DNA of 64,000 nucleotides, taken from contig NZ_LMDG01000023.1 in NCBI RefSeq assembly GCF_001426265.1, forward strand, positions 459,826-523,825. Reading direction: 5' to 3'. The translations under genes and the position numbers were made by a program. Below are positions 15,005 through 49,778 of this stretch, one piece after another. Numbering within the stretch: position 1 is the stretch's first letter; every line of letters begins with the position of its first letter. Origin of the DNA: Rhizobium sp. Root1220 (lineage in GTDB: Bacteria; Pseudomonadota; Alphaproteobacteria; Rhizobiales; Rhizobiaceae). A model generated the notes under the pieces. It had not been told where the DNA came from. It made no database searches and saw only the letters and a list, made by a program, of their open reading frames with translations.

Positions 15005-15640
15005 TCAGTTGGCGCGAACCGCCTGTGTCGGACGCAGCACGCTCATCAGGGCGCCGTAGGGAAGCAGCATGAGCAGACCGACAATTACCTTCACCGAAAA
15101 ATCGCCGATTGCCCAGGAGATCCAGCGCGGCGCCTGTGCGGTGAAAACGCCAAGGATGGGGACGGCTTCCAGCGCGAAGGGATCGTTCGGACCGATGAAG
15201 ACGAAGACGGCGGCAAACGCGAAGGAAAAGAAGATCGCTGTATCGAGCATCGAACCGACCAGTGAGCCGAGCAGCGGTGCACGCCACCATGCCTGTTGGC
15301 GCAGCCGGTTGAAGACGGCGATATCGAGCAGCTGACCGGCAAGATAGGCCGAGCCGGATGCGATCGCGATGCGTGGAACAGAGGTGACGAAAGAAAGCGC
15401 GACACCAACCACGAAGCCTGCGAACACCACCTTGCGCGCGGCCTTGGGGCCGAACTGGCGGTTGGTGAGGTCGGTTATCAGGAAGGCGACCGGGTAGGTG
15501 AAGGCACCCCAGGTCAGAAGATCGGCCAGATTGATGCCGGCGAGCTCGGCATGCAGGGGAAACTGAACCAGGAAGTTCGAGGCGACGACGACCAGCGTCA
15601 TCAGGGCTACGTAGATAAGGGTAGAGCGCATCGTCAGCAT
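15005..15640 (-). CDS. yhhQ: Queuosine precursor transporter (VUT family)
   Basis: A 211-residue inner-membrane protein with about six hydrophobic segments. It contains the VUT/ECF signature LADLLTWGAFTYPVAFLITD, followed by NRQFGPKAARKVVFAGFVVG and a conserved PRIAIASGSAYLAGQLLDI segment. YhhQ imports 7-cyano- or 7-aminomethyl-7-deazaguanine for queuosine in tRNA. The start is the ATG at 15640, placed 7 bases after AGGA. A candidate preQ1 riboswitch occupies 15637-15666 and overlaps this start, which supports both the function and the start choice. The frame is open for 17 codons further upstream without similarity. A hairpin terminator separates it from rpmB. Confidence 0.92.
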   Translation of the reverse strand: MLTMRSTLIYVALMTLVVVASNFLVQFPLHAELAGINLADLLTWGAFTYPVAFLITDLTNRQFGPKAARKVVFAGFVVGVALSFVTSVPRIAIASGSAYLAGQLLDIAVFNRLRQQAWWRAPLLGSLVGSMLDTAIFFSFAFAAVFVFIGPNDPFALEAVPILGVFTAQAPRWISWAIGDFSVKVIVGLLMLLPYGALMSVLRPTQAVRAN

Positions 15641-15666
15641 TTTTTTATCCTGGGGTATGCCACCAG
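15637..15666 (-). ncRNA. Candidate preQ1-I-type riboswitch controlling yhhQ
   Basis: Reading the minus strand from 15666: CUGG pairs with CCAG (15653-15650), enclosing a loop with GCAU (15660-15657) and a following ACCCCAG. An A-rich stretch GAUAAAAAAA comes next, then AUGC (15640-15637), which can pair with the loop GCAU to close an H-type pseudoknot. This reproduces the layout of preQ1-I aptamers, and the ACCCCAG segment is identical to that of the Thermoanaerobacter aptamer as I recall it. AUGC contains the yhhQ start codon and the 3' arm of the first stem carries the Shine-Dalgarno AGGA, so ligand binding would block translation. Confidence 0.62.
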
Positions 15667-15689
15667 TTGGAGGGATCGGCAGGCAAAGC

Positions 15690-15726
15690 AAAAGGCTTGT
15701 CCGGAGATTATCCGTGCAAGCCTTTT
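15690..15726 (-). terminator. Terminator after rpmB
   Basis: A 10-bp perfect stem (AAAAGGCTTG/CAAGCCTTTT) with a nested CGGA/TCCG pair in its loop. It starts 31 bases past the rpmB stop and ends in CCTTTTGCTTT on the minus strand. It would insulate rpmB from yhhQ. Confidence 0.65.
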
Positions 15727-15756
15727 GAAGCCTTATAGCAGAAGGGCAGTTGCTGT

Positions 15757-16056
15757 TTAAGCAGCGACAGCAGCTTCGGCGGTCTTCTTGACAATCTGAC
15801 GGCGCAGCAGACGAGCGCGCATCGACAGATCACCTTCGCTTGCCTTGATCAGGAAAGCATCGAGACCACCGCGATGCTCGACGGTACGCAGAGCAGCAGC
15901 CGAAACGCGAAGACGGTAACGCTGGCCGAGCGCGTCGGAGATCAGCGTAACCTGGCACAGGTTCGGGAGGAACCGGCGCTTGGTCTTGTTGTTGGCATGG
16001 CTGACATTGTTGCCAACGAGGACTGCCTTGCCGGTCAATTCGCACATGCGGGACAT
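15757..16056 (-). CDS. rpmB: 50S ribosomal protein L28
   Basis: A 99-residue basic protein starting [20 protein letters not shown]. It contains [13 protein letters not shown] and a C-terminal helical arm ([19 protein letters not shown]), matching L28 in alphaproteobacteria. It is a structural protein of the large ribosomal subunit. The ATG at 16056 gives the conserved N-terminus. A strong promoter lies about 95 bases upstream and a hairpin terminator follows, so it appears to be a single-gene unit. Confidence 0.97.
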
Positions 16057-16149
16057 GAGACACCTATTCTTGTTTTTCTCGGCCATCTATTGCCGACCCG
16101 CGCAAAATCGGGCTTGCAATCCAACAGGCCATGATTGGAAAGTTGCGGT

Positions 16150-49693: not shown

Positions 49694-49778
49694 TGGTGCC
49701 CCATGCCGGAGTCGAACCAGCACTTCTTTCGAAACTCGATTTTGAGTCGAGCGCGTCTACCAATTCCGCCAATGGGGC
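49694..49778 (-). tRNA. tRNA-Leu (anticodon CAA)
   Basis: On the minus strand, acceptor arm GCCCCAT pairs with ATGGGGC and ends ACCA (CCA encoded, 49696-49694). The D arm contains GGTAGACGC. The anticodon stem CTCGA/TCGAG holds loop CTCAAAA, so the anticodon is CAA, reading UUG. A long variable arm fits a class II leucine tRNA. The T arm is GCTGG-TTCGACT-CCGGC. About 85 bases including CCA. Confidence 0.95.

Follow-up and report, generated by a model that had tools for sequence, protein, structure and literature searches.

Class I preQ1 (preQ1-I) riboswitches are sorted into types that were reportedly defined by McCown 2014. Regulation of yhhQ by preQ1 riboswitches is already known in various bacteria (PMC5372724), and the E. 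coli yhhQ leader carries a type III preQ1-I riboswitch that has been crystallised (PMC10622847). Published accounts place type III almost exclusively in gammaproteobacteria, or in the Pseudomonadota, with the Shine-Dalgarno (SD) sequence placed in its P2 stem (PMC10622847, PMC11625349). The main texts of these two papers contain neither "start codon" nor "AUG", and the initiation codon is mentioned once in the review, for protein S1. A 2013 survey that included Rhizobiales reported that preQ1 riboswitches are mostly limited to Firmicutes (PMC3766115). In the literature passages searched, which lie outside McCown 2014, no description of a start-codon preQ1 element of rhizobia or alphaproteobacteria was found.

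The window analyzed here is the whole 64,000-nt stretch of DNA from Rhizobium sp. Root1220. The original prediction placed an H-type pseudoknot in the yhhQ leader of this window, with the stems CUGG/CCAG and GCAU/AUGC and an A-rich bridge. This fold is borne out by the sequence and by comparison, and the pseudoknot at the yhhQ start is confirmed as real. The element is very probably a translational preQ1-I riboswitch near type III that is found in the GTDB family of Rhizobium. Its sequence, its conservation, the covariation of P1 and P2, the one-base relation of its loop to the E. coli type III loop and its link to yhhQ are established. The original prediction was silent on the likeness to type III, on the confinement to one family in the samples and on the covariation with codon 2. 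The features of the locus are as follows.

15757-16086, minus strand: rpmB (ribosomal protein L28; PF00830), upstream neighbor on the same strand as yhhQ
15690-15726, minus strand: terminator-like hairpin AAAAGGCUUG...CAAGCCUUUU after rpmB, read from the sequence
15637-15666, minus strand: whole element, a 30-nt H-type pseudoknot at the yhhQ start; candidate preQ1-I type III-like aptamer that doubles as expression platform
15663-15666, minus strand: P1 5' strand CUGG (CUGG in 213/214 sequences; CCGG paired with CCGG in L252)
15654-15662, minus strand: loop UGGCAUACC, in which U15662 and G15661 form L1, GCAU at 15660-15657 is the P2 5' strand and L2 ends at C15654
15650-15653, minus strand: P1 3' strand CCAG, pairing with 15666-15663
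15648-15651, minus strand: SD sequence AGGA, overlapping the P1 3' strand and L3, read from the sequence
15641-15649, minus strand: A-rich L3 GAUAAAAAA, joining the P1 3' strand to the P2 3' strand
15637-15640, minus strand: P2 3' strand AUGC, the yhhQ start codon and base 1 of codon 2; covaries with loop nucleotide 3
15005-15640, minus strand: yhhQ (COG1738/QPTR), queuosine precursor transporter of 211 aa (PF02592; TIGR00697 above cut-off)

Read along the minus strand from 15666 to 15637, the element has the order CUGG-UGGCAUACC-CCAG-GAUAAAAAA-AUGC. P2 is formed by 15660-15657 (GCAU) with 15640-15637 (AUGC), of which AUG is the start codon. The SD sequence AGGA had been assigned to the 3' arm of the first stem; the first two bases of 15651-15648 are indeed the end of P1 and the rest belong to L3. 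By homology, C15654 would be the counterpart of the preQ1 specificity base, and the last A of L3 would correspond to A27 of E. coli, which contacts preQ1.

The downstream frame encodes a Vut_1/YhhQ protein (PF02592, E 7.7e-24). Its product reaches 98.8 bits against the NCBIfam model TIGR00697, queuosine precursor transporter (cut-off 50.95), and lies below the cut-off of the NCBIfam model PRK11212. The earlier suggestion that this gene is a queuosine-precursor importer, and that the ligand logic fits it, agrees with PF02592 and with the TIGR00697 match above cut-off. QueF, which makes preQ1, is encoded in the same genome (match 1.9e-32). The terminator-like hairpin is separated from P1 by 23 nt; it is absent from the output of the hairpin scan, which has a loop limit of 8. 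A scan of 15600-15900 found no sigma-70-like promoter. The sole Rfam gathering match in the window is a tRNA at 49697-49778 on the minus strand.

Orthologues of yhhQ were gathered by protein and not by motif, from 60 genomes of the genus, 80 named loci, 151 genomes of the family and 150 genomes of the order. Out of 319 loci, the element was found in 213 distinct leaders and 16 duplicates, which were removed. The pattern was absent from 90/319 loci, one of which (L252) is a variant altered in P1. When the pattern was relaxed so that the U, the CAU, a full ATG and the C preceding the P1 3' strand were all optional, it recovered the same 229 loci before de-duplication, so these features were not imposed by the search. 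The A-run was required in every pattern used, and the invariance of the L3 A-run is therefore by construction. A simple preQ1-I descriptor matched 213/213 elements, 0/213 once-shuffled copies and 0/67 yhhQ leaders from the other families of the order.

The element is present in 60/60 genomes of the genus (59 by pattern, and G053 from leader L018, which has one A fewer) and in 135/143 yhhQ-bearing genomes of the family (133 by pattern, L252 and G567). Leaders were read for 142 of these 143 genomes, G567 being counted from the genome-wide pattern search alone. The other 8/143 carry yhhQ without an intact element, and none of eight family genomes lacking a yhhQ match has the element. In the order outside this family, 79 genomes had a yhhQ match; ten weak matches, together with G719 and G643, were left out, and the element is absent from all 67 yhhQ leaders that were read. 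Named genera with the element include Rhizobium, Agrobacterium, Neorhizobium, Pseudorhizobium, Martelella, Mesorhizobium, Hoeflea, Aurantimonas, Aureimonas and Nitratireductor; the yhhQ loci read in Roseibium, Stappia, Devosia, Amorphus, Prosthecomicrobium and Cohaesibacter do not have it. In L254 and L255, which come from one genus with genomes of 1.1-1.5 Mb, the yhhQ element is decayed (CUGGUUCCAUUACCAAGAUUAAGAAUG) or a mere remnant.

A genome-wide pattern found a single copy in each of the 129 genomes that it matched, and likewise in the Root1220 genome. This pattern is one A shorter than the element and its true sites mostly carry two to three mismatches; it misses G445, G488, G501, G525, G544 and G580, though their leaders carry the element. 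No element was seen at genes other than yhhQ in the genomes searched, where the link to yhhQ is exclusive, and in these samples the element is confined to one bacterial family. Across 385 genomes spread over the class, the strict element pattern occurred in the Root1220 genome only. Type III-like sites in the same 385 genomes amounted to seven pattern matches, none of them near YhhQ (E <0.02, within the stretch fetched), and were judged to be chance. Viral contigs gave no match to the rhizobial element pattern. They gave 28 matches to a loose type III pattern, of which two fit in P2, one of these (L406) with one outer P1 pair.

Pair statistics were taken over 214 sequences, namely the 213 distinct leaders and L252. 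P1 is paired in all of them. U-A forms the second pair of P1 in 213, and L252 shows a compensatory change to C-G. The use of the start codon as a strand of P2 holds throughout, as the three pairs on AUG (CAU/AUG) are found in 214/214, and an invariant core of this kind says nothing by itself. The base that follows AUG is more telling. It is C in 119/119 sequences with the loop UGGCAU and G in 15/15 with UGCCAU, while with UUCCAU it is A in 39, C in 27, T in 14 and G in none of 80. A fourth P2 pair is thus required if loop nucleotide 2 is G and avoided if it is U, and the covariation check that had been proposed for the leaders of yhhQ orthologs is positive. As a baseline, G follows ATG in 10/35 long ATG open reading frames of the window.

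Two further positions are invariant in 214/214 and were not imposed by the search: loop nucleotide 1, always U, and the C that directly precedes the P1 3' strand. The dinucleotide at the latter place is AC in 175/214, CC in 26 (the window among them) and UC in 13. Loop nucleotides 1-4 read UUCC in 80/214, from other lineages, and UG[G/C]C in 134/214, to which the window belongs. The loop has 9 nt in 208/214 sequences. L3 has 9 nt in 202/214 and 8, 10 or 13 nt in 12/214. The AGG after P1 is missing in 6/214, where L3 begins CCU, CGACACC or CCC, and the AUG pairing is retained there, which argues that the start codon and not the SD sequence is the conserved target.

Among 53 distinct sequences, P1 cells are 100% paired and P2 cells 86.1%. 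On these sequences the named structure scores 0.034 for covariation vs 0.015 in shuffles, none of 500 shuffles being as high, where by the tool's own warning the shuffles ignore relatedness; slid by 1-3 columns, the structure scores at most 0.011. Relatedness enters through a FastTree phylogeny of 205 YhhQ rows, with long rows flagged and nine short rows left out, on which the loop class changes at least 11 times. Contrasting UGCCAU with all other loops yields five independent pairs on supported branches, and the codon 2 base follows in 5/5 (sign test p 0.0625, the minimum possible with five pairs). The same contrast for UGGCAU yields only two such pairs, on average 1.5 concordant and 0.5 with no difference, and none against. 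Within the UUCC rows, at least 22 changes of the codon 2 base are counted, none of them to G. The covariation evidence comes from a single P2 position, a P1 change seen in one sequence and the comparison with type III. A MAFFT alignment of the rhizobial and type III groups misplaced the 3' tail, and pairs were therefore counted by script.

For the comparison with type III, 38 genomes from other classes were matched and 37 fetched (not G820), so that 38 yhhQ leaders were read, that of E. coli included. The type III pattern (GGUUCC, CCC, AAAAAGG) is matched by 34/38, and this set was itself chosen by a pattern containing these strings. Two regularities of the set were not imposed by the pattern: the loop continues with CU in 34/34, which places CCU opposite AGG, and the P2 strand is followed by T in 22, C in 8, A in 4 and G in 0/34. 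The E. coli yhhQ loop is UUCCCUCAC; UUCCAUCAC, the most frequent UUCC loop of the rhizobial form (47/80), has the same length and differs from it in one base (C to A), and this base faces a change of G to U on the other strand (AGG to AUG). The pair of substitutions reads as a clean compensatory change that would move P2 from the SD sequence to the start codon. On the strength of the one-base relation and the matched change, the rhizobial form appears to be a preQ1-I aptamer akin to type III, in which the start codon and not the SD sequence supplies a strand of P2.

UUCC loops never have G after the P2 3' strand, in the 80 rhizobial and the 34 type III sequences alike, and this rule was not seen in the literature passages on preQ1-I. 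In the crystal structures, the corresponding uridine and cytidine and the L3 adenines bind preQ1, and C8 forms a triple with the U11-A28 pair (PMC10622847). If loop nucleotide 3 of the rhizobial UUCC loops takes part in the same triple, it has to be kept from pairing with the base that follows AUG, and this would account for the absence of G. The UGGCAU form of the window, in which nucleotide 3 would pair with codon 2 and nucleotide 2 is G, seems to lie one step further from type III.

Type III and the rhizobial form share yhhQ downstream, a 9-nt loop (208/214 rhizobial, 32/34 type III), U at the start of the loop, C directly before the P1 3' strand, an A-run before P2, the U-A and C-G pairs of P2 and the lack of G after P2 in UUCC loops. 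They differ in several respects. The P2 3' strand of type III is the SD sequence AGG (AAGG), whereas in the rhizobial form it is the start codon, AAUG in 214/214. P1 is NGGG/CCCN in type III, with three G-C pairs next to the loop, and CUGG/CCAG in the rhizobial form, with two G-C pairs followed by U-A (C-G in L252) and C-G. The 9-nt L3 of 202/214 sequences, the combination of G at loop nucleotide 2 with a fourth P2 pair into codon 2 (134/214) and the residence in an alphaproteobacterial family also set the rhizobial form apart. The window version lacks two marks of type III, since its loop nucleotide 2 is G and not U and its L2 ends in CC and not AC. Membership in preQ1 class I is likely, and P2 holds the start codon where type III has its SD hallmark, so we file the element as a variant and not as plain type III.

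Riboswitches that occlude both the SD sequence and AUG exist, such as the Vibrio add adenine riboswitch, in which the start codon likewise lies inside the sequestered region. There the codon belongs to a separate expression platform, whereas the rhizobial codon is a strand of the aptamer's own pseudoknot, beside the expected ligand pocket. Type II preQ1-I riboswitches (Tte, Bsu) share with the rhizobial form the H-type pseudoknot, the C specificity base and, in 175/214, AC before the P1 3' strand, and with the UGGCAU form the G in the P2 5' region (PMC10622847). In Tte, P2 takes in no more than the first two bases of the SD sequence, along with non-canonical contacts (PMC10622847), whereas the rhizobial P2 has three to four Watson-Crick pairs on AUG.

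The Rfam preQ1 model RF00522 had been proposed as a check, and it gives no match to the window element even at E 10. It likewise gives none over gathering in 151 family genomes (with stricter filters above 40 genomes), none at E 10 on the E. coli yhhQ leader, the crystallised type III control, and none at E 5 on 14 type III relatives (14 of 34 loci tried). RF00522 does not detect the type III elements on which it was tried, and because it misses the E. coli control and 14/14 relatives, its silence here is uninformative and cannot refute the element. Its only match at the element is in L261, at 19.6 bits, below the gathering score of 39. A family genome also has a sub-gathering match away from yhhQ (L321, G583:C6:60680-60723; 26.5 bits, E 0.005). 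In folding energy, the 61-nt leader does not surpass its shuffles (z 0.44), nor does the E. coli leader used as control (z 0.60). Taken by itself, the 30-mer has a z of -1.41, with 18/200 shuffles equally good, and is predicted to extend P1 by GG/CC in competition with P2; this extended P1 might, as a guess, be the ligand-free state of the window form. Folding energy was dropped as evidence, being uninformative for the element and the E. coli control alike. The case for the element is made by comparison and not by thermodynamics.

We infer that preQ1 is the ligand, that the response is repression and that control is exerted on translation. When preQ1 is plentiful, it would dock between P1 and P2 and pair with the invariant C before the P1 3' strand. 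The docked preQ1 would stabilize the pseudoknot, in which the anticodon-like loop CAU pairs with AUG, with or without one pair into codon 2. With the SD sequence half in P1 and half in L3 and AUG in P2, the whole initiation site would be locked and the precursor importer would not be made. When preQ1 is scarce, P2 would open and yhhQ would be translated. The physiology agrees with such a switch. Symbiosis is defective in S. meliloti queC, queF and tgt mutants, and the phenotypes of the queC and queF mutants are rescued by 300 nM preQ1 (PMC3568095); S. meliloti thus seems to take up preQ1. Bartonella YhhQ imports preQ1 and, less well, queuine, in a paper that makes no mention of a riboswitch (PMC11570991).

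The same fold and start-codon lock could have another queuosine precursor, preQ0 or queuine, as its natural ligand, which we consider unlikely. YhhQ proteins import preQ0, preQ1 or queuine according to lineage (PMC5372724, PMC11570991), and loop nucleotide 2 of the rhizobial form departs from type III in 134/214. A QueF match over cut-off is missing in 59/135 element-bearing genomes of the family; preQ1 there would have to be imported, or another precursor sensed. QueF is found over cut-off in 6/8 family genomes without a yhhQ match, and preQ1 salvage and synthesis seem partly exchangeable in the family. Sensing of another precursor is opposed by the preference of the E. coli type III aptamer, whose binding of preQ0 is weaker by about 138-fold than its binding of preQ1 (PMC10622847). 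The rhizobial form, moreover, retains the two bases, a uridine and a cytidine, by which type III reads preQ1.

A structured translational operator for a protein or sRNA, with no small-molecule ligand, is more improbable still. Small pseudoknots at start codons can serve as protein operators, and rpmB lies directly upstream of yhhQ, which would make L28 a candidate. Against this stands the loop, which differs in a single base from its counterpart in the crystallised preQ1 aptamer at the same gene in E. coli; also, some leaders of other families seem by eye to follow the end of rpmB, yet they are without the element. Hardly credible is the reading with no RNA switch at all, in which the element is a constitutive ribosome-binding site or a coding part of a longer YhhQ. 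The reading frame of the window is open from a TTG at 15691 through the element, as the coding version would have it. However, the L3 length variants (8, 10 or 13 nt instead of 9) shift the upstream frame, the AUG pairing survives the loss of AGG in 6/214, and the covariation of codon 2 with the loop base is explained by neither a plain ribosome-binding site nor coding constraint. The longer YhhQ was rejected on the L3 length shifts and the codon 2 covariation.

It is probable that the rhizobial form constitutes a fourth preQ1-I subtype, belonging to one alphaproteobacterial family, in which the start codon itself closes the ligand pocket and SD pairing is dispensable. Such a subtype would have two interchangeable geometries, one with a three-pair P2, UC within L1 and no G allowed after AUG, the other with a four-pair P2 that extends into codon 2 and so constrains the second residue of the protein. 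If true, this would mean that a very small preQ1 aptamer design has been redirected to AUG instead of the SD sequence, and that a family which includes plant symbionts gains a switch for queuosine-precursor uptake.

A second preQ1-I-like pseudoknot precedes yhhQ in 13 genomes (L370-L382) of an alphaproteobacterial family, f25, which is probably, as a guess, Rhodobacteraceae. It gives no RF00522 match at E 5. Its form is CAAG-U..CCG..(A/C)C-CUUG-..AAAACGG, with P2 formed by CCG/CGG on an SD-like CGGA. Twelve of the 13 were found by pattern, and the thirteenth (L372) was found by eye and has the P1 AAAG/CUUU, a compensatory change.
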